Shown here in pieces: positions 41,058 to 62,929 of a DNA stretch of 64,000 bases. Within the stretch, counting starts at the first letter, position 1; every line of letters begins with the position of its first letter. The position numbers were made by a program, and so were the translations under genes. The notes under the pieces were generated by a model that worked only from the letters and a program-made list of their open reading frames with translations, did no database searches and was not told the DNA's origin. Origin of the DNA: Branchiostoma floridae (lineage: Eukaryota; Chordata; Leptocardii; Amphioxiformes; Branchiostomatidae); the NCBI RefSeq assembly GCF_000003815.2, contig NC_049983.1:10510699-10574698 (forward strand), read 5' to 3'.

Positions 41058-41063
41058 AATAAA
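41058..41063 (+). terminator. Candidate P450 polyadenylation signal
   Basis: AATAAA 410 bases after the stop codon, downstream of the fold-back element. Confidence 0.4.
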
Positions 41064-42462: not shown

Positions 42463-43959
42463 TTCCTAGAGTGGATAATACAATTTCCTAAAGAAGGCTG
42501 GTTCTCTTTCATCAACTTATCGCTCGGAAGTGAACTCACTCTTAGGGTTTGATTTTTCCAGAGGTAGCCTGGCCTGGTAGACAGCCCAGCCTTTTAAGCG
42601 AACCCGTCCGATGCCGCCTCCGACCATTTCCTTCCAAAAAAGATTTTCTTTGATTTTTAACCCTCCTTTATATTTCTCTGCTATCAAACTGAAAATTTAA
42701 CCTTTTGTGGTTTGGTAATTTTGAAAGAGCAAGGCACTTATGAGTACTCTTCCTATCAAAGTTAAGTAAAACAAACACGTGCACAACACATCCGACTTCA
42801 GCATATTTGTTTAATAGCAAAATACAGAAATGCAAAGTGTATAATATATAAACCGCATGAAAAATGAAGATACTCTAGCATACAAAATGAACTTAACATC
42901 TAACCCATTTAGGTTAACAATTACCCTCACTCTAGGACATAGTGGATAAAAAAAGCTAAAATCAGTAAATATTGACATTGTCAGTACATGGTATAGAGGT
43001 AGCGTGGAGCCTTTGTACTTAAAGAATCATAGACTTTTTTCAGTCTAAGGCTAAGGCATTTGCTGATTAGTGTCCGTCAAAAATGTTGCTTGAGTGTGTG
43101 TTTGGTGGGGTTAGTCTGTTAGTGTGTATGTGTCTGTCTTGTGTTGGTGTCAGCGCCATCCTTAGCCTCAGTTACTAGGGAAATTTCCAAACAACTGATT
43201 AAAAGGGCTGCAACCTCTACACAATAAACGGACAATGTTGACATTTACAGAATTCTAACACTTTTCTGCGACAATAAAAAAGTGAAACACAAAAAACAAT
43301 CCAGCGACAGCCACCCCTGTACTGGAATGGCATCAAACAAATACACTAAAAAACAGAGGCTGCTAACAAAAAGCGCCTAAATAACACTACATCTCCAAGC
43401 CTCTTTAAAAAAAAAGACGAGACCTTCACTCAGAAATGGGGGAAACTATACCTAACACCTAACGTAAGTAAGCTTAACTATTATGTTCATGTATCTAACA
43501 TCGTGATATACATGATAACTGTAAAATTGTACACTTTGCATTCTGTTTGTATTGATTCAGTTTCTGTGACTGCGTAGATACCAAGATTTCTAAAGGACTA
43601 AAATTCTTACATAAAAAAAGGCTTTTCAACCACCTGCCTTTCTTTCTGGCCTGTGCCGTTCTCTTGGTTCGGGATCCAAGAAAACAACACGAGGCAGATT
43701 ATGTAATGGTCTAGGTCCCCGACAACCACTGACCATGACATAAAACAGAAATGACGACAGATGGTGAACCAGGGAAAACCCTGTTCATAAAGAACAGAAT
43801 TAACAGTAACTGAATACAATTTCGGCCATCGACACAGTCACAAACAAAATCAGCCACACTCCAAGCTTGTACACCACAAAAACGGGCATTAGCCCTAGCT
43901 GAGAGCAAAAGGAGCCTACATTTACAAAATGTCCTAACGCCCTACTGACTACATCACTC

Positions 43960-44110
43960 AGATCGCAGGGCGCACGAGCACCGATCTTTCTGGACGTCAC
44001 CGTGGAAATGGCGTCGGACAATTTCTCACCAGGATAAGTCCCACCATGAACATTGCAGCTGTGGTTGATCAGGAATTCATGGCATCAATGCGGCCCTGGA
44101 AGATGCTGTG
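43960..44110 (-). pseudogene. Paralogue of the 47091-47261 segment, disrupted
   Basis: Same blocks (TTCATGGTGGGACTTATCCTGG, CGACGCCAT, GTGACGTCCAGAAAGATCGG) but lacking the middle and with a stop upstream. Pairs with 60780-60935 in the right arm. Confidence 0.5.
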
Positions 44111-44468
44111 AGATGTCTCCTTCCCAACTTATGTGACTGCAAGAAAGTGAATTACAGTCAATTATGACGAGCTAGACTTCCATCGTTTTGCTACGTACAC
44201 TAGCTTTCTTATCAAAAATTTTGAAAAGGCACAAGGAAGCCTTATGTACTGCAATGAGTAGAAATGGTGACAAATTATGCAGAGGAAGTTATCAGACTAC
44301 TGTAATGTCTGTTGCGCTAAAGTGTAACGTGAAATAGTCAAATTATAATACTGATTTTAACCAGGTCAAAGTTGGTAGAAACAGTTCAACAACAGTGACA
44401 GTGGCCTGGCTTTTTGAAAAAAATGCAGGAAGGGTCAGGTTGGAACGAGTTGTAGAGGATGCACTCAC

Positions 44469-44558
44469 CTATCAACAGTCTCGTGGTCTGCTTCCTCCCT
44501 CCAAGACAGGTGCAGAAGTAGGGCTGGGCCGGAACGTATACACGCATCTGACTCACAA
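44469..44558 (-). other. Exon-like segment, left arm
   Basis: Bounded by TTAG and GTGAGT, with an open frame reading VSQMRVYVPAQPYFCTCLGG then RKQTTRLLI. The right-arm copy (60320-60412) is 3 bases longer with the frame kept. The KQTTR segment faintly resembles the KQTAR of histone H3, but I would not assign it. Confidence 0.35.
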
Positions 44559-44764
44559 CTAAACTGTTCAACCCAGTCCTAATTTTGAAAAGAAAAAGAA
44601 AACTCTAGTAAGCACTGTTCACCTGAAAATTGTTCACCAACCATTGAAGCTAAGCTTACATTCGCCAAGTTACAATGACATCAGTCATTAACAAAGATTG
44701 CTTTGCTACAACTGCATTCAGACAATATTGTACAACACAAACAACTTATTATATGGAAAAGACT

Positions 44765-44868
44765 GTCCACCTCCTTGGTGATGCACTTGGTGTCGTCACG
44801 AAGCACGATATTGTCATGTCAGTGACGGTGACGCTTTGGACCTCTCCTTCCTTATGACGTCCAGACAT
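44765..44868 (-). pseudogene. Histone H4 fragment, left arm unit 4
   Basis: Starts ATGTCTGGACGTCATAAGG, then has AAGCGTCACCG and GTGCTTCGTGAC in H4 order, then GCATCACCAAGG. This corresponds to about residues 1-32 of H4 with internal deletion and stops. Pairs with 60006-60108. Confidence 0.7.
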
Positions 44869-45174
44869 TTCTAACAAATTGGTAGAAGAAAAAAGACATA
44901 CATCATTTGTCTCAACACCGCTCAACGCCTGTCCAATGGCAAACGGGAATGTGGTGTATAATTAGGACATCTCTGCTAATTCAATCGCTACTATGTCAGA
45001 CTGCCTGAACAATATACAGTGCTACTAATATGGCAGATGCTATTAGCCGACATTTTGATTTCATGCAGCACAGTACAATACCTTCTCAAATGTCCGGTTT
45101 GCAGATCTGATTTACATCCAGTTATGTCATCTCAAGAAGCTACTGAAATCCAGCTACGAGGGGAAACACTAATG

Positions 45175-45250
45175 CGCCTTCCGCCAGGACCACCGTCTCC
45201 TCGGATGTTGTGAAGCGCCTTCGGTGACGGTACCGGCAACGTCCAGATAT
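45175..45250 (-). pseudogene. Histone H4 fragment, left arm unit 3
   Basis: ATATCTGGACG, CCGTCACCGAAGG(C)GCTTC, ACAACATCC and a GAGACGGTGGTCCTGG block resembling the ETRGVL region. Frame lost. Pairs with 59600-59690. Confidence 0.55.
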
Positions 45251-45379
45251 TGCTGTGATATCAGTAAAAGAAAGAGACATGCGTCAGCTGCTCGCTACGT
45301 CAATACCGCTGTAACAAACACAAAAGGTTCAACGCCTGCCCAATGGAAAGTAGGAACTGTACACACAATACCTTGTTTA

Positions 45380-45509
45380 TGTCGGGAAAGACTTGTGCCC
45401 TGGCTTGGTGATGCACCGGATGTTGTCACGAAGCACTTGCAGTAACGGTGACACTTTGAAACCTCCATTCCCCTGTGCCTTTATTTCCTCGCTTACCAAG
45501 CCCAGACAC
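45380..45509 (-). pseudogene. Histone H4 fragment, left arm unit 2
   Basis: Reads GTGTCTGGGCTTGGTAAGCG... to AAGTGCTTCGTGACAACATCC and GCATCACCAAGCCAGGG, colinear with the first third of H4 (MSGRGKGG to DNIQGITKP). The start is GTG and a frameshift precedes the KVLRDNI block. Pairs with 59331-59460. Confidence 0.8.
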
Positions 45510-45819
45510 TTCTAGCAAATCTAATAAACAGACACATGCATAAGCTGTCATACCACCGCTGCCACAAACCCAAAAGGCTCAGGGCAAGTCCTAGAAACGA
45601 CACCCCAAATACTACTATGTACTCCTAGTATACAGTGATATGCAGATGTTCAGGTACGGTACATAAACTGAAATTGAAAATGTAAACTTAAACTAGTGTG
45701 CCAACACAAATGGAATGAAAAGGCTATTCATTGACAAAGACTGTTGTCCTATAGTTGAAAACATGTGTGCTTTCACACAATACGGTGCGGTACCTTGTCA
45801 TAGAAGACTGCGAAGCCCG

Positions 45820-45879
45820 TTCACTCACGTTCGGCACCTTACTTCGCCAGTCCTCGCCTTCCTTTCCGCGGCCAGACAT
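45820..45879 (-). pseudogene. Histone H4 fragment, left arm unit 1
   Basis: ATGTCTGGCCGCGGAAAGG keeps the MSGRGK start, then diverges. Pairs with 58963-59030. Confidence 0.65.
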
Positions 45880-46832
45880 TTCTTCTTACGGTGCGATGAT
45901 CCTCGGGAGAAAAGACGAGACAAAAATTAAACCTAAATCAGAAATATGGAAAGACTATACCTAACACTATAACTAAAAGAAAGCTCAGCTACATCATGAG
46001 TACATGTATTGGCATGGCAGGAAGTTCAATTGTTTTGTCATTGTAATTTCAGTTCTAGTTTTAACATAGAAATAGCGAGAGGAATCATTACCTCTTGTTT
46101 GGTGGCAGGGTGTTGAGTGTGCTTTGATGAAATCCTAAGTAATGCTGCTTTTGGCATAATGCTGCCTTTGTTTTGCTTGAATTTTCGAGAGCAATGGCTA
46201 CTTCTGAACTAAAAGCTTCAGTCTGCTTTTGTGATATACAAGCCCAATGCATAGCTGTTTCAGTTTCTGTGACTATGTCGACGCCGAGATGTCAAGTTTT
46301 ATCTAAACGACTAAACTAGTAATATTAAATAGGAGCTTCAGTCACCTGTCCTCCTTTCTGGCCTGTGCCGTTCTCTTGGTTCGGGACCCAAGAAAACAAC
46401 ACGAGGCAGATTATGTAATGGTCTAGGTCCCCGACAACCACTGACCATGACATAAAACAGAAATGACAACAGATGGTGAACCAGGGAAAACCCTGTTTTG
46501 TAAACAACAGAATTTGACATAATTTACCGAATACCATCCCGACCATCGACATAATCACAGAAACCAAACCAGCCACACACCAGGCCTGCACACCACAGAA
46601 ACGGGCTGAAGCCCTGAATGCAAAAGGAGCCTCCATTTACAAAATGTCCTAATGTAAACCCCTCCCGACAACATCGCTCGGAATGTCAACAGAACACACT
46701 CAAGCACCTTACCTACAACCAAGAGTTCAGTTAACGAAACATCACAACTAATTTACTTCCTATCATGCTGATGAAAAGTAAGTCCCAGCCCATCTCTGCT
46801 ATATGTTTACACCCCATAAGACACAAGAGTAC

Positions 46833-46916
46833 TTAACTTAGTCTCAGGTCCCTTGGCAGGGCGTAACCTCGAGCACCGATCTTTCTGGACGTCACCTTGA
46901 TGGCACCAATAAGGTC
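46833..46916 (-). pseudogene. Short exon-like copy, possibly H4 C-terminal relic
   Basis: Open from a CTTCCAG acceptor: DLIGAIKVTSRKIGARGYAL, then PRDLRLS and a stop. It equals the 47091-47261 copy with the middle deleted. TTACGCCCTG matches the VYAL codons of H4, but protein similarity is weak. Confidence 0.35.
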
Positions 46917-47090
46917 CTGGAAGCAACAAAGCGAAATTTCAATCAGTTAAAGACAGGCTTGCTTTGTTGTAATGTATAGCGCACAAAAGGCTGCACAAAT
47001 TATTTACTTCCTATTATACCGACGACAAGTTAGTCCCAGCCCATCTCTGCGAGATGTTTCCGTTTTACACCCCATAACACACACAAGAAC

Positions 47091-47261
47091 TTATCTTAGT
47101 TTCAGGTCCTCTGGCAGGGCGCACACACGAGCACCGATCTTTCTGGACGTCACCGTACAGCTAGCCGTGGAGATGGCATCGGACAATCTCTCATCCAGGA
47201 TAAGTCCCACCAGGAAGATTGCAGCTGCAGTTAATCCGGACTTGATGGCACCAATAAGATC
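47091..47261 (-). pseudogene. Exon-like open segment, possibly H4-derived
   Basis: Fifty-six codons from an AG acceptor to TAA, including AAAIFLVGLILDERLSDAIS and RVCALPEDLKLR. GLI-x-x-E, DA(V/I) and TVT...V-x-AL fall in the order of the H4 C-terminal half, and related copies at 43980-44100 and 60790-60930 keep GTGTACGCCCTG (H4 VYAL). Origin from H4 is plausible, not proven. It could be part of an unknown gene. Confidence 0.4.
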
Positions 47262-47357
47262 CTGAAAGCAAGAAAGTGAAATAACAATTAGTTCAAGACA
47301 GACTAACGTCAAGAAATGTTTAAGGCAATAGATAAGGCACAGGTATGCCTTGCATGT

Positions 47358-48114
47358 AACATGCATTGGCGTAATACCGGTAGTAAGACTTATACCGGTA
47401 GATTAAAAATACTGGAACTTAAAGAGATCTACACATGCAACAATAGTTATTTCTGAGCTGTGCACACTTCAGACATTTAGGTGTCCAATACATCATTTAC
47501 AAAGCATCGATAACAATGCATTCGAAGACAACAAGGCCAAAAGTTTTCGGTATCTTTTTCGGGGTAGGCAGCTCGTCGTGGGACGAACACACTGTCACAT
47601 TCATTGCCAAATTTATAGATCATAATTACACATGCTCACGGCACAAGACGAACATGATTCAACAGCAATCTTGAATTTCTGTTGGTGACCTACAACTCAT
47701 GTAAAAGTGTGAAGAACCGTTGCATAATAGCCCGGATCTACGACTGAATGGGCAAAATTGAACGTACGCAGCCATTTTCCCGCCATCTACGCTAGCAGTG
47801 AAGTGTTACGTCATAGCGGTTGTGACGGACAGAAGTTAAATGAAAATTCTTGACAGTATACGTCCGTTTTCTCATGACATTTTGTATGCTCATGCAGGTT
47901 TATGTTTTATGCATTTACTGACAGAACAGGAAGGAACATCAGAGGATGTATAAATGTACATAGCGGCAGTTAATTGTGCCGTGTTTCTTCCTACCGGTAT
48001 TTTTTACCCCCTCCCAACCACGCGCCCGTTCGCCGTGTAATTCCGCGGCGTGTTACGATTACAATATTACGCTTTTAGCAGGACAAGAGAGGCAGAAAAG
48101 TTACACAGAAGAAG
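47358..48114 (+). repeat. Segmental duplicate D1, copy 2
   Basis: Near copy of 28198-28961 in the same orientation. Here the sequence continues past the point where the first copy enters the gap. Confidence 0.85.
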
Positions 48115-48768
48115 TGGCAAGGTTAACCTATAACAGCAACATGTAACTGGAGAAAATGATGCGTTGACAATTTGTCAAATCAGTATGGCTAGAGAAATCG
48201 TCGTAAACGTACCGGTATTATGATAATAGATGTTAAGTGCAGCTTGGTCTGCGTTTTTCGTATCATCCGACGGCCATAAAAGAATTCAACGTTTACTGAT
48301 AATAAGTTATACAAAACGTATTAACACACATAAAGGCACTCCGTGAAGAACGACCAAACTAACCTGTTATCAAAGGTAGGACGCCGAACGGACAAAGGCC
48401 TCCGTCACCGAGCGGCCGTGATGTTGTTCTGTACTGGTAAGCTGCGAGGTTTATAAGCCAGTCAACTCAGACACCTGGCAGACATACGGCGCGACAGTCT
48501 AAAAATACCCCAAGGTGTCATTGGTCAAAAGAATGCACTTCTCCGATTGGATATCTGAAATGATGAAATTAATTACAGCACACGACCAGGACCAATGATA
48601 CCTGAGGGATGACTGATTGCTTGACCAATCACAGACCAGTAATTATTTTCACCTGTGTTGGACACACCTTTGTTCTTCTCCCCCAGACAATTCTCATTCG
48701 ATTCCTTTACCATGTGTGACCGTAACGTTATACCCGCTTCTTCTCACGGACTCGCACCGTAACCAGAA
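48115..48768. other. Noncoding, no gene seen
   Basis: No supported gene. The 3' part leads into the H4 relic and ends with an AGAAAT start context like those of the other units. Confidence 0.4.
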
Positions 48769-48930
48769 ATATCTACACACGGCAAGGGCTGCCGAAGGGA
48801 GATGTCAACCGTTACCGCTTCGCGACAACACCCCGGGATCCAGAGATGTCAAGAAATATCCGGGGTCATCTACGAGACGACCCACGGCGTTTTGTACTGT
48901 GAGACTGAGAACAGGCTCTGCTTAGCATTA
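48769..48930 (+). pseudogene. Histone H4 pseudogene (most complete)
   Basis: Begins ATATCT (for ATGTCT), then GGCAAGGGCTGCCGAAGGGAG, CGTTACCGCTTCGCGACAACA, and after a deletion GATGTCAAGAAATATCCGG. The frame then reads ISGVIYETTHGVLYCETEN, clearly H4 ISGLIYEETRGVLKVFLEN. About residues 1-65 are covered with one internal deletion and frame changes. A spacer like that of the arm units follows at 49010-49080 (TTGTTATAACGGTGGCGAGG, CAGCTGATGCG). Confidence 0.8.
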
Positions 48931-49204
48931 GCTATGATTTTGGACATTGAATCATTGCAGTTTATCAAATTTGTCCACTTCGAATTGTGTGGCCCACATT
49001 ATCACTTACCATTGGACAGCTGTTGAGTATTTTGTGTTTGTTATAACGGTGGCGAGGCAGCTGATGCGAGCCTGTCTTTTACCGGAATAAAACCGCACGC
49101 CGAATCGGTCTCTATCTATCTATATCTATACTCTACTGGGCAAAGCCCCATTCAGGGGCATCCCGTCCAGGTGAAAAGAAACGAGGTGCACTGCACTAGT
49201 GCGA

Positions 49205-49232
49205 CCGGTGGTGGTGGTGGTGGTGGTGGTGC
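49205..49232 (+). repeat. (GGT)n microsatellite
   Basis: Eight to nine GGT triplets. Confidence 0.9.
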
Positions 49233-49379
49233 TCCGAAAAAGAAAAATAGTGAGTGCAGAACAAAACAGAAATCGGTGAGTGATGGCCGCCCTAATGAAC
49301 TGTATCTGCATATGGGGGACGGGGAGGCCCATGTGCTGGGTCAGCCCCGTCTTGAAGGTTGTCAGTGATGGTGACGTGA

Positions 49380-49700
49380 CTAGCTGTGGTGGAATGCTGT
49401 TCCATTGTGGTATTGTTCTGGGGATTTAACTAAATCTGTAGGTGTCTGTTCTGCATGAAAATGTAATGTATCTATGTTGATGGCTACCAGCCCATTAATG
49501 GCTTTGTATAGGAGGGTCAGACGTGCCTGTTGTCTTCTTTCACTGAGAGTGGGCCATCCCAAGTTGGTCTTGAGTTGGGGTACACTGGTAGTGATTCTGT
49601 AATCATTGGTCACATACCTAGCCGCCCTATTTTGTACTACTTCGATCTTCGGTCGGTAAAGCTGGCATGGGCTGCGGAAGGGAGTCACCAAGACTGTATT
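49380..49700 (-). mobile_element. LINE ORF2 C-terminal fragment
   Basis: The minus frame reads VQNRAARYVTNDYRITTSVP, then LGWPTLSERRQQARLTLLYK and INGLVAI. This is the region just after the reverse transcriptase in CR1/L2-like elements (QRRAARYV...LGWPTLEERR). Truncated at both sides. Confidence 0.8.
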
Positions 49701-49704
49701 GCGT

Positions 49705-50298
49705 AAGTAGGGTAGCTGAGATCTTTTGGGGCCGTTCTGTATAACTTGTCACCATGTCGAACTTACCCATGCATTGTCGTATATACCGTTATATACGTGA
49801 CTGTTTTTCTAAACAGAGATAATGTTCTGACATGAATTCTTTAGTGGTGTTGTACATACGATAATAGATTAAACAGAAGCAAACACGAAGATTGGACAAT
49901 TTCTTCCCCAACAGGAGATAGTAGGGTGTATGTGAATGTACTAAGTATCATACGTTAGACCACAGCTGGTAAATATTATGACATCTTCTACACACACTAA
50001 AATCTAATGCGAGCGTGCAGCCTGTGTAAAAAAACAAGGTGGACAAAAAACAAGGTGCCTACATTTCTACTTTTAGATAACATAAAGACTTGTAAAAAGA
50101 ACTGAACCGATGAAATTCTTACAACCAACAGGATTTTCGTTCTAATATTAAGTGATACAGTGTATGGTGCAGTGACACAGTCACTGACACTATACTGGTG
50201 TACAGATACAGAAGCGTCGCTTTATTATCAATGCCATTACCAGAGGCGGAAAGATTTTGATTTCCTATCTGCGATTGGCCAACTCAATCATGTATTAA
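49705..50298 (+). repeat. Segmental duplicate D3, copy 1 (5' part; continues 51210-51302)
   Basis: GTAGGGTAGCTGAG(A/G)TCTTTTGGGGCCG onward is repeated directly at 55628-56515. The copy is split by the piggyBac-type element and runs on to TTTACCTTTGTACCATT just before D2 and the Shisa-like first exon. Confidence 0.85.
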
Positions 50299-51209
50299 CC
50301 CTATCTAGACCAGGCTTTTTTGGGATCCCTGGGACCAAGGGGGGGCTCTTTTGACCCCCCCGTCGTATTTTCAAAACGGCTTGAGTTACGATCATCAAAT
50401 TTGAAGGGGATGATGTTCTAGTAGAGTTTTAAATTTTCTGTAATTTTGGTATCGTTATGACGTAATATGACGTAATTATGACGTCATAATGTCATATTTT
50501 GGGCTAAAATCGTCAAAATATTAAATTTCCGCTATACTTAAATGTATTGAGCAAAATGATGACAATAAAGCTTATCTTATTGGTGTCTAAGTCTGCCAAG
50601 TCTTATGTTTCCAATGGCGTCGACACTGACGTCTATGTGACGTCAGAAAATGACGTCATTTGTCCGCCATCTTGGATCGACAACCGTGAATTTTCTAAAA
50701 TACGACTTTTTCCACATATAACCCCAAAACCCAATAGAGATGGACTGAAAATGATCAAATGATTGTGTTTTGTAAGAAAATAAAAGATTTTGACGGTATT
50801 TGAGTAAAAATTACATGTATTTATTGTTGAAAATGGCAATGTCCGCCATCTTGGATTTTGACCCATGACGTCATCAAATTAGCATAAATTATGAATATTT
50901 AAATGAAAATATTACTTAAAATTACACAGGATGTTAATGATATTAATAAACAAGTTTGATCTTGCAATTAAACCATGATATCCCATAATTCAAACTGAAA
51001 TTAGTAAATTTGGGAAAATATGCCTGTCAGAAACCCGTTGCCATGGCAACACGAAAAATCACAAACTAAAACTTTTTTCGTAGAATTGTTGCCAACAATA
51101 TTTTAGGAAAAGTCACCAAGTTTCGTAGTCCTAGCACACGTCGTTCACTAGTTATACGACGTCAAAGTCGACGCGGGCACTTTTAGCCCCCCCCCTGGTC
51201 TAGATAGGG
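50299..51209. mobile_element. piggyBac-type nonautonomous element (911 bp)
   Basis: Terminal inverted repeats CCCTATCTAGACCAGG at both ends, flanked by TTAA at 50295-50298 and 51210-51213. The paralogous empty site at 56416-56419 has a single TTAA in identical context, proving insertion. No transposase frame. The interior holds four TGACGTCA palindromes (50479, 50638, 50651, 50866), two CCGCCATCTTGG motifs (50664, 50843) and a perfect X-box GTTGCCATGGCAAC (51037-51050). Confidence 0.9.
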
Positions 51210-51307
51210 TTAAGCATTATCATTGGTAGGTGCTACTACGTTGACCAATGATAGCGTATCAATTTAACGCCTACCGTGTCTATCAAATTTACCTTTGTAC
51301 CATTCTG

Positions 51308-51440
51308 AAACCAATCGCCAGAGGTCGCTGCTGAACAGGACATGGCGCAGACGCAGAACATACGCAACTGGGACAGTAAGGCCAGCGAAAGGTAGCCTGT
51401 GTCAAATACTGTTTTCCAGGAAGGGCTATCGAAGGCAACG
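51308..51440 (+). repeat. Segmental duplicate D2, copy 2 (Shisa-like 5' flank)
   Basis: Matches 29725-29890 upstream of ATP23. It ends a few bases before the Shisa-like ATG, so it probably includes promoter or 5' UTR. Confidence 0.75.
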
Positions 51441-51448
51441 TCTAAAAG

Positions 51449-52159
51449 ATGGCGTTGACGGCACTGACGTTGACGTGTTTAGCCCTCGTCTCGAAAGGTA
51501 CGTTTCAATATATAGCTAGGGCATATCTAGTTTTATACGCTCCCGATCATCGCCTGGTGTCATTGACCGCGCCCCTTGGTTGAATCAATGGACGTTCCGT
51601 AACAACGGTAATACTACTAATAGGCGACAAAGGGCATTGATGGTTATAGACATAATGAACATTTCGTTGCTTCTGGTCCCTATAACCTCCTCATGGTTCA
51701 TTGATAGTCAACAGCTGGTGTGTTACGCCGAACGGCGGTTATACCGGCTATATAGACATGTAGACGATACAGATACAGAAACATTTGCAATGTCTTTCTG
51801 ATCCTCATAGTCAAGGCGATGTTGTCCTACGATCTAGTTGTGGTACCTGGAATTTGTGACCTAGTCTGGGTACCATCCTATTTCTACCCGGGCTCCTTTG
51901 TATACTCACTGCCTTTTTAGGGAAGCTAGTGTAAGGAGCCCCGGTAGAAATAGGTTGGTACCCAGGCTATTTGTGACCAAGTATTGTTCGTGATTCAAAA
52001 GGCACTAGACTCATCATCAAACTTTTACAATGAGTGTCACGAATCGGTTCGGCAACGTGTGGGTCATTCCGTGCCTTTTGAATTATGCTCAAAGTAATGT
52101 TTTGTATTACGGGAGTAGAAAGTTTGGATTGAGAAGAAGAAACACACTCGCGCACGAAA

Positions 52160-52200
<41 letters not shown>

Positions 52201-52388
52201 CACACAGACACACATGCACACGCACACACACACACACACACACACAAACAAGTATGGATGGAAAGGTCGATCGATAAAAAACGGATGAAAGGAAGAGGAA
52301 AAGGTCACGATTTTTCCACCAACTTCTGCTTGGAGAGTACACGTATGAACACAAATACACACATGCGCGCACACACACAAACACACAT

Positions 52389-52483
<95 letters not shown>

Positions 52484-55060
52484 CACACAAAAACGGAACA
52501 ATTCTAAACGATACCAATACCTATTCATGTTATCCCCCTACAGTGGCTACAGAACACTGTCCATCGTACTTCGGGGAGTCCAGCTGGCTCCTGAACTCTA
52601 CATTTGGCGACATGTACGCTGCCTTTGACTGCCCCAGGCCGCACGACCCACCAGGACACACTCACTGCTGCGGGATGTACTCTTCTAAATTCTGTTGTCC
52701 GGAGAAATGTGGCCGCTATGCCTTTTCCTGCCCGCGACCGGCCCCTAGCTGGCCAGACAACGACAACACAAATTCAAATTCAGGGTGAGGGTCGGACGCA
52801 ATATCAAAACCTCTATCATTATAATCAATTTCCTCTGTTTTGGGATAAACGATTATCGTCTGTGGCGAAGATTTGTTCTAAGAGGGCTATTATCTTCCAC
52901 ATGAGTCTTTTTCCTTCTGGTGCCCACTTGAAATACATAGGTGCACAAATACATAGATAAAGCAGTCTTCGAAAAATACATGTTGCCCATCGCAGGCTTG
53001 ACGCAGTGAAAGAATACAATGATAACGTGAGATGGGATTTGGTTTACTTTCCGGCACGCAAAATAAAATTGTGGCGTCAGGCGTGGCGTAACTGATAGAG
53101 CTTTCGGCTCGGAATCTATGGGTCCTGAGTTCGATTCCCACCGTGCCCCGACGTTGTGCCCTTGGGAAAGGCACTTTACACGACTTTCCTTGTCTGTACC
53201 GTGTATGTGGCATTGTTAATATAAGTTACAAAAACTTGAGTGCAGTGCCACATCGTCCTCGTCTGTCCAAAAGCAAAAATAGAAAAAAATAAAATAAAAT
53301 AAAATCGCTTGACGTCCTGTTTCGTATTTGTCCTCGGTATGTAAATACTTTTGCTCCCTTTCGTCTCAATAGGACCTACGACAGTGGCGACTACTATGAC
53401 ACAAGTGATAGCGGGTGAGTTAATGTCCTTGCAATTGTTTCACTTCAAAGGTTTTTATATTTGGGCTATTATCCTGAGGTGTGCATGTGTTTTGAAAATG
53501 GCGTTCACCTTTCTTTTGTTTGCTACAGTCATGGTTTCTCGTTCGCTGCAATGTTTACCCTGCGTTTTTTTTTAGGCTTCAACTTATGGTAAATTTTACA
53601 AGAAAATATGATTCAAGCATTGTCTGTGGAATCAGTGTCCTTTATTTCTGAAGAAAATTTTCGACTGAGAGCTCTTGTTCATTTTTGACTCATTGATCAG
53701 GATTCACCAGATGCCTCCATCAAAGAATCCATATTATTAATCTTATACCTCTCCGAAAGCTCCAGTTTTGCGGCCAGTAGTGGTGGAATGGCGATCCTGG
53801 CAGTGGCTTTCTTCGCAATTGTGTGCACCGTGGCGCTGTGTTGTTGTAAAAGTGCCTACAAGAGGGAAGAAGGTAAGAAATACATGTACAAAGTTACATG
53901 TCAGACGTAGAACCTTGTGAGTAGGATGTATCATGGAGATAGATTGTTAATCCGCGCAAACACAATCTTCATTTTTTTCTCTAACGTAAGTTTCATGATA
54001 CATTGATGCATTTCTTCTGTCGTATTCTTACCTCCTTGAAAACGGTTATATTACTAGTATGTTCGGTCTATCTGTTTGTTTGTTTGTACTCGTGTGTGTT
54101 CGTATTTATTTGAATATTGTAGAGTGACAGGATGTGAGGCGGAAGAGGGTTGGCCAAAGTTGATCCCACAACTGGCAGGATGGGAAGGTTGGCTTGTCCG
54201 GGTCCAAGTAAAGTTGACTCTGAATAGACCAAACTAGCGGGAAATTGCCCGAAATGAATAAACAAGAAATTCACTAAAACGACTTTGAATGTTTCACGTT
54301 GTTATGAGATCTTCCTTTTTTGCTTTTGACCTAAACACTTCTTTCTGCGTGTTTTGCCATGTTCAGACTTGAGTAGAGCCATGGGGTCGGACGGGTACGT
54401 CGCTACGTACGTTGACGGCACGACGTTGTCATCACCGGGCCGGGTCAGAGGTCGCTCACAAGGTATCATCATTATCTTATCATCAGTTTCTCTTTTGAAC
54501 AAACTAATCTTCCAACGGAACAAAAACGTACCCAGCGGGAACGATATACGTCAGCAAGTAAGTCCTATTTGGTTGTGTACAAGAATTCTCCCATATCCGA
54601 GAACGATATAGTTTTGAAGAATGTTTCACTTGAATCTGTTAGATATAAAAGAAATGATTGTCTCTCCCTGTTTCTAGCCAACGCCGTAGGAGGTACAGTG
54701 GTGCATCCCACAGTGCACGTGCACCCTCGGTCCTCAGACCATCAGCCGAACCGTTCGCCTGCAGAGCCGCCGACCCGGGGCTTCCCTCCTTCGGGCCAAC
54801 CTCCGTTCTCCCCGCCTCCATCAGCCCCGCCCACACAGGGTTTCTCAGACCCGCCTCCGTTCGCCCCTCCTCCGTTCGCCCCTCCTCCGTCAGCCCCGCC
54901 TACACAGGACTTCTCTCCCTCGGCACCACCTCCCTTCGCCCCGCCTAGTCACTACCAAGCAGGGGCGGCTCCAGCAAGTGGACAGCCACCATTCTCTGAC
55001 GAACCCCCTCCTTATGACGTGGCTACCATGTTTCCTACCGTTGATCCACAGAACCGTTGA
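51449..55060 (+). CDS. Shisa-like single-pass membrane protein (301 aa, 6 exons)
   Basis: Shisa proteins are type I membrane proteins with an extracellular cysteine-rich domain; members retain Wnt/FGF receptors in the ER or act with AMPA receptors. Exons: 51449-51497, 52544-52784, 53373-53414, 53778-53872, 54367-54462, 54678-55060, all in phase. Residues 1-16 (MALTALTLTCLALVSK) are a signal peptide. The cysteine-rich domain follows, with C-x-Y-F-x(4)-W, FDCP, and HCCGMYSSKFCC, the hallmark CCG-x(n)-CC spacing. A short acidic YDSGDYYD linker leads to the membrane span GMAILAVAFFAIVCTVALCC. The cytoplasmic tail is Pro-rich with APPTQGF/APPTQDF repeats and a PPPY motif (EPPPYDV) for WW domains. 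Closest subfamily not resolved. It sits in the centre of the palindrome, flanked by direct duplicate D3. Confidence 0.88.
51858..51972. mobile_element. Fold-back element, Shisa-like intron 1
   Basis: AGTCTGGGTACCATCCTATTTC...CGGGCTCCTT is inverted as AAGGAGCCCCGG...TAGGTTGGTACCCAGGCT; arms of about 36 bases, short loop. Confidence 0.7.
52164..52490 (+). repeat. Compound (CA)n microsatellite
   Basis: Long CA runs broken by ATGCACA, CAGACA and a non-repetitive stretch at 52248-52340. It generates long spurious frames (HTHTHT on plus, CVCVCV on minus) next to the Shisa-like exon 2. Confidence 0.95.
53080..53312 (+). mobile_element. tRNA-derived SINE, Shisa-like intron 2
   Basis: A-box-like TGGCGTAACTGATAGAGC and B box GAGTTCGATTCCC, then TGCCCTTGGGAAAGGCAC and an A-rich tail ending in repeated AAAAT. 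Confidence 0.8.
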
Positions 55061-55627
55061 TCCACAAAACCGATAATCACACTATGGAGCAACTGACACC
55101 CGTATTTCCATGCAAGCAAAGCATATCAAATTCTTTGCACGTCTTCCAAACGCGGTTTGAAAATGATAATGTATCCTTAGTTGTAAGCTTGCTGTTGGTT
55201 CACCCGACGAATAACTGTTATCATTGTCTACTATAGACCAGAGCTACCGACGATATATTAGCCTGGAGTCCAGCCTTCTAGCGAATTCTCTTCGGGAGCG
55301 GATCAATTCGAACAAGGCTGGACTCCAGGCTACGACGATGTTGCACAGAGGCCATACTTCGTCTACTCGTCTTCATAGTCTGCAGAATACAAAAATACTT
55401 CTGATTGTATTTGTATATAAGATGTATTTGTTTCATATTTTGTGATAATTTCTCCTGTAAATACGTATACATACATGTTGCATTATATACCCTCTCAGGA
55501 AATATACAATATGGCACAAGTCGGTACCTCAGCGGAGTGGAATACTGTATTACGTCGAAATGATTTCTTTGAGCATCTAACTAATGTGGATTTTGATGTG
55601 GGTTTGGCACATCATAATTTGCGAAAG
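55061..55627. other. Shisa-like 3' flank
   Basis: Probable 3' UTR and downstream DNA. It contains the hairpin listed separately; no canonical AATAAA is obvious. Confidence 0.4.
55260..55335. mobile_element. 75-bp hairpin element
   Basis: AGCCTGGAGTCCAGCC is perfectly inverted as GGCTGGACTCCAGGCT, separated by about 43 bases that themselves contain GCGAATTC / GAATTCG-like complementarity. The same GGCTGGACTCCAGG word occurs at 18382, pointing to a dispersed family. Confidence 0.65.
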
Positions 55628-56515
55628 TAGGGTAGCTGAGGTCTTTTGGGGCCGTTCTGTTTGACTTGTGACCATGTCGAACTTGCCCATGTCGTATATA
55701 CCGTTATATACGTGACTGTTTTTCTAAACAAAGATAATGTTCTGACATGAATTTTTTAGTGGTATTGTATATACGATAATAAATTAAACAGAAGTAAGCA
55801 CGAAGATTCGAGAATTTCTCCCCCAACAGGAAATAGTAGGGTGTATGTGAATGTACTAAGTATCATACGTTAGACCGCAGTAGGTAAATTTAATTTTATG
55901 ACATCCTCTACACACTCCGAATCTAACGCGAGCGTGCAGACTGTGTAATAAAACAAGGTGGACAAAAAACAAGGTGCCTACATTTCCACTTTTAGATAAC
56001 ATAAAAGCTTGTAAAAAGAATTGAACCGATGAAATTTTTACAATCAACAAGATTTATGTTCCAATATTAAGTACTGTAAATGTATTTAAGTTCGCGGGGA
56101 TCAATTTCTTGGTATTGGGACAAAGGACTTTTCGCGGTGGTTTTGATTTCGCAGTAACACGATAGACTGCAGTATAATACCATAATAGAAAAATGTTCGC
56201 GGTGGTTTTAAGTTCGCGGTTAAGTGGTCACCATGAAAACCGCGAACATTAATCCACCGCGAACATTTCTGCATTTACAGTAATACGGTATATGGTGAGG
56301 TGACACTGGTGTACTGATAAAGAAGCGTCGCCTTTGCGGACAAAATTGTTATTGTCATTACCAGAGGCGGAAAGATTTTGATTTCCTATCTGCGATTGGC
56401 CAACTCAATCATGTATTAAGCATTATCATTGGTAGATGCTACTACGTTGGCCAATGATAGCGTATTAATTTAACACCTACAGTACATTTTACCCCATCAA
56501 AATTACCTTTGTACC
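55628..56515 (+). repeat. Segmental duplicate D3, copy 2
   Basis: Direct copy of 49705-50298 plus 51210-51302. It lacks the piggyBac-type element but carries the 207-bp element at 56074-56280. It breaks at ACCATTG, exactly where copy 1 continues into D2. Confidence 0.85.
56074..56280. mobile_element. MITE with TTCGCGG terminal repeats (207 bp)
   Basis: The inverted ends are CTGTAAATGTATTTAAG... at the left and CTGTAAATGCAGAAATG... (reverse-complemented right end), each leading into TTCGCGG. TA flanks both ends. It is absent from duplicate D3 copy 1. The interior repeats TTCGCGGTGGTTTT. Confidence 0.75.
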
Positions 56516-57041
56516 ATTGGAAAGCTTTGGAGCTTTGTCCAATCTTCACACATCAAACCTGCCCAAGACGACCACCCGGGGGACCAGGAAAAACGGTCGA
56601 TTTGGACAGGTGGTCGTTGAGAACGACGGATTGCCTGCATTTTAGGTATGCAGGTAGCTTGGGCAAAGATGTTCATAATGATATGCATTTTATACAAATG
56701 AGGAATTAATTTGCATAATTAATGAGGAAATTGTATAATTCCATTATTTGCAATAACTGGACTTCGATAAATGTAACACTTGTTAATTATAATCGGTGGA
56801 ACATATGCAGATATCAAATATGCAAATGAGGAACTTATTTGCATAATTTATGCAAAAATTGCAAATAACTTAATGATTGATGATCTGAATTGGGAATTTT
56901 ACTTGTGACATGTGTACTGTACGTTATTCAATGATGAACAACACCATGCATAAATCATGTTAATGTTAAGTCATTTGCATGAAATTAACAAAAGCTTTAA
57001 ATATTCATGGAGGTATGAGGTCGCCGAACTCTAGTTTACAA
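56516..57041 (-). repeat. Interspersed repeat family B, copy 1
   Basis: AT-rich with many ATTTGCATAATTAATGAGG and ATGCAAATGA words, ending GAGGTATGAGGTCGCCGAACTCTAGTT. The same words and end occur at 57590-58895. It truncates both duplicate D3 and the right palindrome arm. Confidence 0.6.
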
Positions 57042-57589
57042 AATAGGGTTTTCCCTGCTTCACCATCTGTTGTCATTTCTGTTTTATGTCATGGTCAGTG
57101 GTTGTCGGGGACCTAGACCATTACATAATCTGCCTCGTGTCGTTATCTTGGGTCCCGAACCAAGAGAACGGCACAGGCCAGAAAGGAGGACAGGTGGCTG
57201 AACAACCTATTTAATATTACTAGTTTAGTTGTTTAGATAAAACTTGACATCTCGGCGTCGACATAGTCACAGAAACTGAAACAACTATGCATTGGGCTTG
57301 TATATCACAGAAGCAGACTGAAACTTTTAGTGCAGAAGTAGCCATTGCTCTCGAAAATTCAAGCAAAGCAAAGGCAGCATTATGCCAAAAGCAGCATTAC
57401 TTAGGATTTCATCAAAGCACACTCAAAACCCTGCCACCAAACAAGGGATAATGATTCCTCTCGCTATTTCTATGTTAAAACTAGAACTGAAATTACAATG
57501 ACAAAACAAGTGAACTTCCTGCCATGCCACTACATGCAGCTGAGCTTTCTTTTAGTTATAGTGTTAGGTATAGTCTTCCCATATTTACC

Positions 57590-58895
57590 TTTTCCAGAAT
57601 GGCTAAGGTTATGTTTTGGGCTTGTGAGTCTGTGTGTGTGTCTGTGTGTTAACAGCATAACTCGAGAAGCCTTGGATGGATCCTGATGATATTTGGTAGG
57701 TGGGTAGGGGTCGGGAAAACGAAGGTCAAGTTCGATAATGGGCCCCCTAGCGGCTTGCTAAGGTACTGCAGCGGAAACTCAATTTTTTATATCTCGTGTT
57801 CTGGACATGCTGTGGTCATGATTTTTGAGTGGTAGATAGTCCTCGAGGCAGAGAGTAAGTGCTGTGAGTTTGGGCCCCCTAGCGGCTTTTTTGGAACTGC
57901 AGGCGCCGGTTTCCTTTCAAACTTTGGACGAGAATAACTACAACGTGTTGACGGATCGTCATGATTTTTGGTATGTAGATAGAATGAGTGATGACTTACA
58001 TAATGGTATACTTATTATGCAAATCAACAGGTAATTTGCATAATTAATGAGGAAAATTCATAAATCCACTGCATTCCATGATAGGACTTTCAAACTTGTC
58101 ACATATGTAGCTGGGAAGGAGAGAAATGTCGATAGATATCAATTATGCAAATGATGACCTCATTTGCATAATTAATGAGAAAATATGAACATGTTGACGG
58201 ATCATCATGTTTTTTGGTATGTAGGTAGCGTAAGTGAAGACCTACATAATGAGATACCAATTATGCAAATCAACAGCTAATTTGCATAATTAATGAGGAT
58301 ATTTTATAAATTCACTACATTCATGATAGGACTTTAAAACTTGTCACATATGTAGCTGAGAAAGAGAGAAATGTCAATACATATTTATCATGCAAATGAT
58401 GATCTCATTTGCATAATTAATGAGAAAATATGAACGTGTTGACGGATCGTCATGATTTTTGGCATGTAGATAGCCCAAGTGAAGACTTATATAATGTGAT
58501 ACTTATTATGCAAAAAAACAGGTAATTTGCATAATTGATTAGGAAAAGTTAATAAATCTACTGCATTCCATTATAGTACTTTCATCAAAGTTGTCACATA
58601 TGTAACTGAGAAAGAGGGAAGAGAGTAAGAGGTGTATTTAAAGACTTTGAAAGAGAATGGATCAAAGGATCATCATGATTTTTGGTATGCTGATAGCTTA
58701 AGTAATGCTTGATACAATTTGACATCAATTAATTGTAACTTGGGATCTAATTTGCATAATGAATGCCAAAATTTTATAAACCAACTCCAAGCATATAATT
58801 ATAAAGAAAATGAAATGAGTAACGCATTTGTCTGCAGACATCATTCTACATAACAAACCTGATTTATTTGGCAAAGGTATGCGTTCGTGGAACTC
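57590..58895 (-). repeat. Interspersed repeat families A and B, 1.3-kb insertion in the right arm
   Basis: Absent from the matching place in the left arm (about 45940-45950), so it is an insertion. The 5' part is family A (CCCCCTAGCGGC blocks, as at 8090). The rest is a tandem array ending GGAACTCTAGTT, as at 57040. Confidence 0.75.
57942..58720 (+). repeat. Tandem repeat, unit about 245 bp
   Basis: Units begin AACGTGTTGACGGATCGTCATGATTTTTGG near 57942, 58188 and 58433, with a degenerate fourth near 58650. Each unit contains paired TTATGCAAAT / ATTTGCATAATTAATGAG words, which are octamer (POU) motifs in both orientations. Confidence 0.8.
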
Positions 58896-58962
58896 TAGTT
58901 CTAATTTAGGTTTAATTTTTGTCTCGTCTTTTCTCCCGAGGATCATCGCACCGTAAGAAGAA

Positions 58963-59035
58963 ATGTCTGGACGCGGAAAGGGAGGCGAGGACTGGCGAAG
59001 GAAGGTGCCGAACGTGAGCGAACGGGCTTAGCAGT
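58963..59035 (+). pseudogene. Histone H4 fragment, right arm unit 1
   Basis: AAATGTCTGGACGCGGAAAGGGAGGCG encodes MSGRGKGG, then diverges with a frameshift and stops. Pairs with 45820-45879. Confidence 0.7.
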
Positions 59036-59330
59036 CTTCTATGACAAGGTATCGTACTGTATTGTGTGAAAGCACACGTTTTTAACTATAGGACAACAGT
59101 CTTTGTCAATGAATAGCCTTTTCATTCCATTTGTGTTGGTACACTAGTTTAAGTTTACATTTTCAATTTCAGTTTGTGTACCGTACCTGAACATCTGTAT
59201 ATCACTGTATACTAGTAGTACATCGTAGTATTTGGGGTGTCGTTTCTAGGACTTGCCCTGAGCCTTTTGGGTTTGTGGCAGCGGTGGTATGACAGCTTAT
59301 GCATGTGTCTGTTTATTAGATTTCCTAGAC

Positions 59331-59462
59331 GTGTCTGGGCTTGGTAAGCGAGGAAATAAAGGCACTGGGGAATGGAGGTTTCAAAGTGTCACCGTTACTG
59401 CAAGTGCTTCGTGACAACATCCGGTGCATCACCAAGCCAGGGCACGAGTCTTTCCCGACATA
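59331..59462 (+). pseudogene. Histone H4 fragment, right arm unit 2
   Basis: GTGTCTGGGCTTGGTAAG, then AAAGGCACTGGGGAATGGAGG and GTGTCACCG, then GTGCTTCGTGACAACATCC and GCATCACCAAGCCA. This is colinear with about 105 bases of H4 coding sequence up to ITKP; the start codon is lost and frame shifts occur. Confidence 0.85.
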
Positions 59463-59599
59463 GACAAGGTATTGTGCTGTATTGTGTCTACAGTTCCTAC
59501 TTTCCATTGGGCAGGCGTTGAACCTTTCGTGTTTGTTACAGCGGTATTGACGTAGCGAGCAGCTGATGCATGTCTCTGTCTTTTACTGATATCACAGAA

Positions 59600-59690
59600 A
59601 TATCTGAACGTTAGCGGTACCGTCACCGAAGGTGCTTCACAACATCCGGGGAGACGGTGGTCCTGGCGGAAGGCGTGTTTAGTGTCTCCC
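59600..59690 (+). pseudogene. Histone H4 fragment, right arm unit 3
   Basis: ATATCTGAACG, CCGTCACCGAAGGTGCTTC, ACAACATCCGGGG then GAGACGGTGGTCCTGG. Preceded by the common spacer CCATTGGGCAGGCGTTGA...GCAGCTGATGC. Confidence 0.6.
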
Positions 59691-60005
59691 CTCGTAGCTG
59701 TGTTTCAGAAGCTTCTTGATGACATTCCATAAATGGATGTACCTATGTAAATCAGCTCTGCAAACCAGACATTTTAGAAGGTATTGTACTGTGCTGCGTG
59801 AAATCAAAATGTCGGCTTATAGCATCTGCCATATCAGTAGCATTGAATATTGTTTAGGCAGTCTGTATAGACTGACGTAGTAGCAACTGGAGTAGCATTC
59901 GATATGTCCTAATTATACACCGCATTCCCGTTTGCCATTGGACAGGCATTGAGCGGTGTTGAGACACATGATGCATGTCTTTTTTCTTCTACCTATTTGT
60001 TAGAA

Positions 60006-60108
60006 ATGTCTGGACGCCATAAGGAAGCAGAGGTCAAGCGTCACCGTCACTGACATGACAATATCGTGCTTCGTGACGACACCACGTGCATCACCATATA
60101 GTAAGTTG
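60006..60108 (+). pseudogene. Histone H4 fragment, right arm unit 4
   Basis: ATGTCTGGACGC, AAGCGTCACCGTCAC, GTGCTTCGTGACGACACC, GCATCACCA in H4 order, with an early in-frame TGA. Preceded by GCCATTGGACAGGCATTGAGC at 59933-59953, a CCAAT-box-bearing spacer. Confidence 0.75.
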
Positions 60109-60319
60109 TTTGGGTTGTACAATATTGTCTGATTGCAGCCGTAGCGTAGCAATCTTTGTTAATGACTGATGTCCTTCTAACTTGGCGAATGTAAGCTTGC
60201 TTAGTTTCAATGGGCGAGTGTAAGCTTAGCTTCAATGGTTGATGAACAATGTTCAGGTGAACAGTGCTTACTAGAGTTTTCTTTTTCTTTTCAAACTTAT
60301 AACTGGTTGAACAGTTTAG

Positions 60320-60412
60320 CTGTGAGTCAGCTGATGCGTGCACACGTTCCGGTCCAGCCCTACTTCTGCACCTGTCTTGGAGGGAGGAAGCAGACCACGA
60401 GACTGTTGATAG
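60320..60412 (+). other. Exon-like segment, right arm
   Basis: Bounded by TTTAG and GTGAGT; open frame VSQLMRAHVPVQPYFCTCLG then GRKQTTRLLI. Mirror copy of 44469-44558, which lacks one codon. Function unknown. Confidence 0.35.
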
Positions 60413-60779
60413 GTGAGTGCATCCTCTACAACTCGTTCCAACCTGACCCTGTTTACATTTTTTTTTTCAAAAAGTCAGGCCACTGTCACTGTTGTTTAAC
60501 CGTTTCTACCAACTTGACCTGGTTAAGATCAGTAAGCAATAATTTGACCATTTTGCGTTATACGTTAGCGCTACAGACATTACAGTAGTCTATTAAGTTC
60601 CTCTGCATAATTTGTCACCACTTCCACTCCTAGCAGGACATAAGGCTTCCTTGTGCCTTTTCAAGAATATTTTGATTTTAAAGCTAGTAGCAAAACAATG
60701 GAAGTCTAGCCAGTCATTATTGATTGTAATTCACTTTCTTGCAGTCACAATAAGTTGGGAAGGAGGCATCTCTCAGCAG

Positions 60780-60935
60780 CTTCCAGGACCGCATTGATGC
60801 CATGAATTCCTGATCAACTGCAGCTACAATGTTCATGGTGGGACTTATCCTGGTGAGAGGTTGTCCGACGCCATCTCCACGGTGACGTCCAGAAAGATCA
60901 GTGCTCGTGTGTACGCCCTGTGATCTGAGTGATTT
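60780..60935 (+). pseudogene. Paralogue of the 47091-47261 segment, right arm
   Basis: Mirror of 43960-44110. It keeps TTCATGGTGGGACTTATCC, GTGACGTCCAGAAAGATC and GTGTACGCCCTG but has stops in frame. Confidence 0.5.
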
Positions 60936-62347
60936 AGCCAGTGGGGCGTTAGGACATTTTGTAAAGGAGGCTCCTTTTGCCATCAGGGCTACAGTCCGCT
61001 TCTGTGGTGTACAAGCTTGGTGTATGGCTGGTTTTGCTTCTGTGACTGTGTCGATGGCCGGGATTGTATAGAGTTTCTGTTGATTCTGTTCATTATAAAC
61101 AGGGTTTTCCCTGGTTCACCATCTGTTGTCATTTCTGTTAGAAATTTAGTCCTTTAGAAATGCTAGACTTCTTGGTATCTACGCAGTCACAGAAACTGAA
61201 TCAATACAAACAGAATGCAAAGTGTGCGATTTCACAGTTATCATGTATATCACGATGTTAGATACATGTACATATAGTTAAGCTTACTTACGTTAGGTGT
61301 TAGGTATAGTTTTCCCCATATTTGAGTGAAGGTCTCGTCTTTTGTTTTTGTTAAGAGGCTTGGAGATGTAGTGTTGTTTAGGCGCTTTTTGTTAGCAGCC
61401 TCTCTTTTTGAGTGCATTTGTTTGATGCCATTCCAGTACAGGAGTGGCTGACGCTGGATTGTTTTTTGTGCTTAACTTTTTTATTGTCGCAAAAAAGTGT
61501 TAGCATTCTGTAAATGTCAACTGTCCGTTTATTGTGTAGAGGTTGTAGCCCTTTTAATCAGTTGTTTGGAAATTTGCCTAGTAACTGAGGCTAAGGCTGG
61601 CGCTGACACTAACACAAGACAGACACATACACACTAACAGACTAACCCCACCAAACACACACTCATGCAACATTTTTGACGGACACTAATCAGCAAATGC
61701 CTTAGCCTTAGACTGAAAAAAATCTATGATTCTTTAAGTACAAAGGCTCCACGCTACCTCTATACCATGTACTGACAATGTATATATTGACTGATTTTAG
61801 CTTTTTTATCCACTATGTCCTAGAGTGAGGGTATTTGTTAACCTAAATGGGTTAGATGTTAAGTTCATTTTTGATGCTGGACTATCTTCATTTATCATGC
61901 GGTTTATATATTATGCACTTTGCATTCCTCTATTTTGCTATTAAACAAATATGCTGAAGTCGGATGTGTTGTGCACGTTTTTGTTTTACTCAACTTTGAT
62001 AGGAAAAATACTCATAAGTGCCTTGCTGTTTCAAAATTGATTTACAACTGTTCTGTTCTTACCACATCACCAAACCACAAAAGGTTAAATTTTCAGTTTG
62101 ATGGCAGAGAAATATAAAGGAGGGTTAAAAATCAGTACACACACTACATTTACAACAAAGAAAATCTTTTTTGGAAGGAAATGGTCGGAGGCGGCATTGG
62201 ACGGGTTCGCTTAAAAGGCTGGGCTGTCTACCAGGCCAGGCTACCTCTGGAAAAATCAAACCCTAAGAGTGAGTTCACTTCCGAACGATAAGTTGATGAA
62301 AGAGAACCAGCCTTCTTTAGGAAATTGTATTATCCCCTCTAGGAACT

Positions 62348-62925: not shown

Positions 62926-62929
62926 GCTC

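Follow-up and report, generated by a model that had tools for sequence, protein, structure and literature searches.

The sequence analysed, here called the window, is a 64,000-nucleotide stretch of Branchiostoma floridae contig NC_049983.1. Comparison of the window with itself, which the earlier note had proposed as a check, recovered two inverted arms by blastn in three matches: 42459-43615 vs. 62349-61132 (90.3% identity), 43744-45946 vs. 61139-58896 (88.2%) and 45942-46505 vs. 57586-57034 (94.3%). The mirrored arms described before are a real local duplication. Of the 20-kb imperfect palindrome that they had been taken to form, the inverted repeat stands but the palindrome does not, as the two inverted segments lie about 10.5 kb apart. 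By sequence, the locus is two copies of a dispersed family in opposite orientation, and each copy carries its own insertion. The features are as follows:

42459-46505, minus strand (the H4-sense strand): left arm of the inverted pair (self-blastn and tree)
57034-62349, plus strand: right arm, with an insertion at about 57587-58895 (self-blastn and tree)
42459-42765, mirrored at about 62041-62349, no strand: flank common to both arms (flank search, 40 of 202 candidates scored)
42766-49104, minus strand: left-hand copy of the dispersed family (parts of it match all 20 of the 20 loci fetched, which were picked from the genome search with the H4 segment)
47354-48235, no strand: another repeat, inserted in the left copy, with a relative at 28197-28961 (self-blastn and comparison with the fetched loci)
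57587-58895, no strand: insertion inside the right copy, about 2.7 tandem units of 245 bp (self-blastn and repeat analysis)
45812-45919, minus strand: H4 unit 1 left, 5′ UTR and first codons (score reached by 0 of 1000 shuffles)
45402-45508, minus strand: H4 unit 2 left, codons about 1-33 (0 of 1000)
45199-45229, minus strand: H4 unit 3 left, not significant alone (85 of 1000)
44774-44889, minus strand: H4 unit 4 left (0 of 1000)
58923-59025, plus strand: H4 unit 1 right, 37 bp of 5′ UTR and first codons (0 of 1000)
59328-59457, plus strand: H4 unit 2 right (0 of 1000)
59621-59651, plus strand: H4 unit 3 right, weak (5 of 1000)
59985-60096, plus strand: H4 unit 4 right (0 of 1000)
48516-48907, plus strand: central H4 copy, running from a CCAAT-bearing promoter and 5′ UTR through an exon 1 with deletions into the first bases of the intron
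49654-49692, plus strand: second central H4 fragment, weak (0 of 1000; E 0.03)

The count of at least nine H4 coding fragments given in the earlier note holds, with eight units in the arms, a ninth in the centre and a weak tenth at 49654. For eight of the ten units, all 1000 shuffles scored lower, so the chance-level matching that had been named as refuting does not apply to them; for three control stretches, 947, 826 and 263 of 1000 shuffles scored as high. The exceptions are both copies of unit 3, whose weak scores mean that its identification rests on position and spacer. The H4 protein alone gave weak tblastn matches in the window (best E 0.003). Alignment at the DNA level to H4 genes from this genome, a check proposed beforehand, reached E 1.4e-9, and an intron-bearing H4 gene with its 5′ flank as query reached 1.5e-15. 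Five window segments scored at least 51 bits, followed by 31.1, 31.1, 29.7, 25.4, 25.4 and 24.0 bits; among 100 null sequences generated from the dinucleotide frequencies of the region, 78 had a match, with a top score of 26.8 bits. As had been claimed, no unit corresponds to an intact gene, and none of the 34 matches listed in a genome-wide H4 protein search falls in the window. The H4 pieces produce no histone.

Origin of the inverted pair

In a FastTree analysis of 13 sequences, which used 11 of the 20 fetched loci, the arms were sisters with a support of 0.996. They are 92.8% identical to each other; identity to the other copies is 86-92% for nine and 72-73% for two of them. Fragments of the flank common to both arms occur outside the window (locus C9 and many 45-base matches), none of them joined to the family in the scored matches (40 of 202 candidates), and at the junction point the remaining family copies run into different sequence. 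Mutually closest arms with a common flank junction are what a local inverted duplication should leave. Since the arms are sisters and their flank junction is absent elsewhere in the scored matches, the data indicate that one such duplication produced the pair. An assembly artefact, in which one haplotype was joined inverted onto the other, would also give arms that are alike and close together. Yet there is no N run within 42459-62347, the outer flanks are unrelated (39001-42440 has no match to 62361-64000), and the arms have diverged to 92.8% identity with one insertion per copy. The lack of an N run and the unrelated outer flanks give no indication of an inverted haplotype join, which we consider extremely improbable. 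Among the scored matches to units 1 and 2, both orientations were found at only one of 35 loci, the window itself. When compared with the whole gene, locus L024 also has H4 pieces in both orientations, and the mirrored layout is therefore not unique.

Source and dispersal of the H4 pieces

Comparison with 12 H4 genes identified a gene with one intron, at C5:15632300, as the best-matching source. It scored 111 vs. at most 82 for the other genes with unit 1 right, 98 vs. 73 with unit 1 left, 112 vs. 80 with the central unit and 63 vs. 45 with the window promoter stretch. Units 2 and 4 did not discriminate between source genes (95 vs. 99; 67 vs. 68; 66 vs. 72), and neither did the promoter stretch of copy L012 (48 vs. 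48). The central unit can be aligned to the intron-bearing gene from its promoter across exon 1 as far as the first bases of the intron. Exon 2 had no match in the window, and none in one young element and eight further loci that were compared. The candidate source gene keeps intact coding exons in the same genome. It is most likely that the H4 pieces were copied from this one gene, and the promoter-to-intron alignment, together with the best fit, suggests that promoter and exon 1 were probably captured as DNA and then spread. A processed pseudogene (H4 retrocopy) would have neither promoter nor intron sequence. Here promoter, 5′ UTR and exon/intron border are all present, in agreement with the earlier view of DNA duplication and not retroposition. 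The AGAA preceding the ATG, tried as a splice acceptor, is instead homologous to 5′ UTR sequence of the intron-bearing gene.

The H4-bearing segment was found at at least 35 loci on 17 contigs (40 of the 89 candidates were scored, giving at least 58 matches that group into 35 loci). The earlier note had interpreted the units as the relic of a functional H4-only gene cluster preserved as an inverted repeat. Several tandem units and mirrored arms agree with such an origin, but a tandem histone cluster should have units confined to the locus and derived from cluster genes. The observed dispersal to at least 35 loci, the fit of the discriminating units (unit 1 and the centre) to a single intron-bearing gene and not to an array, and the missing exon 2 all argue against it. 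Between the window and the flanks of the 12 H4 genes, all matches were short: the longest, of 77 bases, lies at 38123-38190, and another, of 42 bases in reverse, at 58961-59001. We therefore regard a relic cluster as very unlikely. Instead, the H4 pieces are likely to be captured host DNA within a dispersed family of mobile elements.

The segment could also have been dispersed by recombination and not by transposition, as old segmental duplications of a host locus. Older copies do share stretches of variable length and have other ends, and candidate places are more numerous for the hairpin block described below (142) than for the H4 unit (89). Against this, a young subfamily has identical ends at unrelated sites, and its 3′ end is that of a larger family: the terminal 60 bases gave at least 40 matches (40 of 399 candidates scored), six of these 40 lying downstream of a like-oriented H4 unit at a distance of 3.0-4.7 kb. 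Segmental duplication is accordingly an unlikely explanation compared with spread as a mobile element.

The young elements are about 8.2 kb long, with aligned pieces 90-99% identical and unrelated flanks. Copies C14, C16 and C1 start at one common sequence, and these three and C8, which is one A longer, stop at another. As in Helentrons and HINEs, no target site duplication was found in the flanks of C14, C16 and C1, and a 3′ stem-loop (8-bp stem, 5-nt loop) is located 8 nt from the end. In the three copies for which both ends were read, the borders are TTTT on one side and TT on the other. An exact 8-bp subterminal inverted repeat lies 3 nt from the 5′ end, where its copy is palindromic, and 29 nt from the 3′ end. 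In these features the young subfamily resembles Helentron/HINE rolling-circle transposons; the window copies have no Helentron-like ends, so the class assignment rests on their young relatives. A different class of DNA transposon, either canonical Helitron or undescribed, may have carried the cargo. The young 3′ end is CTTATT and not the CTRR of Helitrons, and older copies (L011, L012, L020) have a different, CTAGTT-like common end. However, the young subfamily does not begin with the canonical 5′ TC either, and T-run borders, stem-loop and subterminal repeat fit the Helentrons described in PMC4067079 better, which leaves another class rather unlikely.

We propose that a rolling-circle element of Helentron type would have taken up the H4 promoter and exon 1 as DNA, and that the captured piece was duplicated inside it. 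The element may then have multiplied with Rep/helicase supplied from elsewhere; the genome holds 79 Helitron_like_N matches, 21 of them (counted by hand) in open frames of at least 1900 aa. At the window locus, one copy would have lost its end before the inverted duplication, and both copies would have decayed afterwards.

Thomas et al. 2014 (PMC4067079) describe Helentron-Cq-32A of Culex quinquefasciatus, which is present in 8 copies and whose H4 fragment has decayed through stops, a frame shift and indels, and document histone capture by a Helentron, as of 2014, in Culex only. Both systems have a decayed H4 fragment amplified in the genome, here in a probably Helentron-type element. The cargo studied here differs in retaining promoter and exon/intron border, in being internally multiplied and in occupying at least 35 loci, and its host has a 513-Mb genome; we infer that the capture was independent. 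The same paper gives the absence of target duplication, T-run borders, a 3′ stem-loop, a subterminal inverted repeat and tandem repeats as features of the non-autonomous HINE/DINE-1 elements. The lack of target duplication, the stem-loop and the tandem repeats are shared here, and the T-run borders and subterminal repeat appear similar. Compared with HINE/DINE-1, the present element is long (about 8.2 kb) and carries gene cargo, and its subterminal repeat is only 8 bp and nearer the 3′ end (29 nt), vs. 12-15 bp and 38-60 nt in Helentrons/HINEs. In the small part of the later literature covered, we saw no further report of Helentron histone capture. The present one would be a second case, in which promoter and exon/intron border serve as the fingerprint of a capture at the DNA level. 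With the candidate source gene still in the genome, the capture can be dated and its route put to the test. The case also cautions against taking H4-like fragments scattered in such genomes for dead histone clusters by default.

A conserved hairpin block as possible second cargo

The family copies contain a further conserved block, which in the window is represented by:

46050-46760, minus strand: hairpin block P1, conserved core 46335-46491
43330-44070, minus strand: hairpin block P2, core 43623-43779 mostly absent from the right arm
57034-57284, plus strand: truncated hairpin block of the right copy, core 57048-57204

Many copies of the block share a long open frame. Peptides holding it had no Pfam match at E up to 10 (among the eight peptides searched, one other gave three matches, all under cut-off), its pN/pS was 0.86, and divergence at codon positions 1, 2 and 3 was 0.050, 0.032 and 0.042; a protein-coding reading of the block was accordingly rejected. 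A scan of viral contigs with the frame yielded no relative, only 12 pattern matches. For a peptide encoded next to the block, the only PDB matches were three with E of 1 or worse.

The block is a palindrome of about 700-770 nt with a tip predicted to form a three-way junction, in which two mutually complementary loops (UCGGG/CCCGA) are invariant in 35 aligned copies. Rfam gave nothing for the block at curated thresholds, the one hit being a 5S gene elsewhere, and matches below these thresholds were all far under cut-off. In the block, 95% of hairpin cells were paired vs. 40-48% when slid. On the H4-sense strand, three copies had MFE z values of -5.5, -6.3 and -6.1; the opposite strand of the window copy had -2.8. 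G-U pairs exceeded A-C pairs 61:11 in L024:8622-9391, and 39:13 (P1) and 15:4 (P2) in majority sequences; further counts of 189:21, 69:20 and 51:9 are biased to G-U, as pairs were picked with G-U allowed. Covariation was not above shuffles (366 of 500 reached it), and an unbiased count among copy variants showed no asymmetry (50 vs. 57 pairs in P1, 36 vs. 25 in P2). Near-complete folding was seen in a single copy of 31 (-0.69 kcal/mol per nt, vs. -0.23 to -0.45 in the others), and this copy differs in the first loop region. Given these mixed results, any selection on the hairpin would seem to be older than the dispersal, with the arms decaying today.

Tentatively, the second cargo could be an undescribed long hairpin RNA whose source was selected as RNA on the H4-sense strand. 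Joined H4 promoter/exon pieces might then give hairpin transcripts, perhaps siRNA precursors, past or present, from many sites, possibly more than 100. Hairpin-RNA (hpRNA) loci of Drosophila are long inverted repeats. The long inverted repeats found here could similarly be transcribed as a single hairpin, and differ in having a conserved predicted three-way junction at the tip.

H4-derived pieces and their probable source gene

At the protein level, matches of the window to H4 were weak (best E 0.003). Comparison of the window DNA with H4 genes of the same genome gave good matches (E 1.4e-9), and an intron-bearing H4 gene with its flank gave E 1.5e-15. The decayed H4 fragments described in the earlier note were upheld, as 8 of 10 units scored above all 1000 shuffles; unit 3 was equalled by 5 of 1000 shuffles on the right arm and by 85 of 1000 on the left.

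The intron-bearing gene, C5:15632300 (from position 801 of fetched locus L040), has intact coding exons and a single intron of ~460 bp after codon 60, both read directly in L040. Among the 34 H4 matches listed in the genome, 22 full-length ones were identical to canonical H4; the intron-bearing gene stands beside at least 22 full-length intronless matches. When 12 H4 genes were compared, C5:15632300 scored 111 with unit 1 right (others at most 82), 98 with unit 1 left (at most 73), 112 with the central copy at 48516-48907 (+) (at most 80) and 63 with the window promoter stretch (at most 45). The source genes could not be told apart with units 2 and 4, nor with the promoter stretch of locus L012. 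These scores identify C5:15632300 as the best candidate source among the 12 genes.

Alignment of the central copy to this gene starts in the promoter, spans exon 1 and reaches GTGAGACTG in the intron, and no exon 2 match was found in the window, the element on contig C1 or eight other loci. This explains where the units end and argues against a processed retrocopy.

Dispersal and ends of the H4-bearing family

The H4-bearing family is dispersed. The window occupies C5:10510699-10574698 in a 513-Mb assembly (431 contigs). Searching this assembly with unit 58896-59500 gave at least 58 matches (a lower bound, with 40 of 89 candidates scored), which, grouped at distances of up to 20 kb, fell into 35 loci on 17 contigs. 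All 20 ten-kb loci fetched, which were picked from matches to this unit, matched parts of the window region, and identity along the element differed between subfamilies.

A young subfamily (copies on C14, C16 and C1, and a shorter C8 copy; aligned pieces 90-99% identical) has ends common to copies at unrelated sites. Read in the H4-sense direction, it starts with TTTTGGCGACGCC and finishes in a stem-loop and CTTATT; it also carries an 8-bp subterminal inverted repeat. Target duplication was absent at the C14, C16 and C1 copies, and the C14 copy has two 163-bp direct repeats near one end. The 3′ 60 bases gave at least 40 genome matches (40 of 399 candidates scored). For 6 of the 40, an H4 unit of the same orientation lies 3.0-4.7 kb upstream, which suggests that the elements carrying H4 form one part of a larger family. 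Three older copies bear a different end, and the window copies have lost their own.

Helitron_like_N has 79 matches in the genome. The element is a gene-capturing rolling-circle-like transposon, ordinary in kind and unusual in its cargo and the clarity of its source; its rolling-circle mechanism and the succession of events are inferred. Among the titles listed on amphioxus histones, H4 introns and pseudogenes, Helitrons in Branchiostoma, Helitron/Helentron capture and hairpin RNA, none reported the family. PMC4067079 describes Helentron histone capture as undocumented outside Culex, and PMC10145014 discusses virus-like stretches in histone genes.

Layout and origin of the inverted arms

The earlier note had placed the H4 pieces in a 20-kb imperfect palindrome. 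Self-comparison of the window confirmed the mirrored arms; a single long palindrome did not hold, as ~10.5 kb separate the arms, which form an inverted pair.

Inverted arms and insertions
42459-46505 (-), left arm
57034-62349 (+), right arm
42459-43615 vs 62349-61132, inverted match pair 1
43744-45946 vs 61139-58896, inverted match pair 2
45942-46505 vs 57586-57034, inverted match pair 3
47354-48235, insertion in left copy
about 57587-58895, insertion in right copy

In a comparison using 11 of the 20 fetched loci, the two arms were sisters (FastTree support 0.996; 13 sequences, 2123 columns), being 92.8% identical to each other; identity to nine further copies was 86-92%, and to the remaining two 72-73%. 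Both share a flank (42459-42766) with an identical junction, which was found at no other place among 40 scored matches (202 candidates); pieces of the flank are present on C9, and a 45-base repeat from it at many places. The arms were duplicated locally, and a single inverted duplication is the simplest account of the pair. The arm interval contains no N and is bordered on its two outer sides by sequences without a match to each other.

The right copy ends at 57034. Most of the hairpin core found at 43616-43743 in the left arm is missing from the right arm, as if deleted, with 8 bases overlapping at the joint (61132-61139). Two repeats adjoin the right copy near 57035 and 58898, each terminating in GAACTCTAGTT; a similar end, inverted, stands at the start of loci L011, L012 and L020.

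A conserved hairpin block and other features

Besides the H4 pieces, the element carries a conserved block of ~157 nt, with 41 copies in the window and the 20 loci. The block forms the tip of a ~700-770-nt palindrome.

Repeated blocks
46050-46760 (-), long hairpin with three-way-junction tip
43330-44070 (-), long hairpin with three-way-junction tip
L024:8622-9391 (+), best copy of this hairpin
47114-47268 (-), second repeated block
46994-47154 (-), second repeated block
46743-46896 (-), second repeated block
43965-44102 (-), second repeated block

A model of the block gave 87 matches at E up to 1. Of these, 43 were strong, including the 35 that built it. Mean majority-base frequency was 0.96-0.97 in the core vs. 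0.78-0.91 in the surroundings, and core identity to the window remains 0.96-1.00 in two C13 copies. The genome has 142 candidate places, the 40 scored matching at 90-100%. The tip is predicted to fold as a three-way junction; its two loops are complementary and do not vary among 35 copies. Evidence on whether the hairpin was selected as RNA points both ways; covariation in the block does not exceed shuffles, and no Rfam family matched. The block is not evidently coding.

The second repeated block has recurring open frames and is moderately conserved, and its peptides gave no Pfam match above cut-off. Elsewhere in the window, a 5S rRNA-like gene (50.6 bits) lies at 27883-28002 (-).
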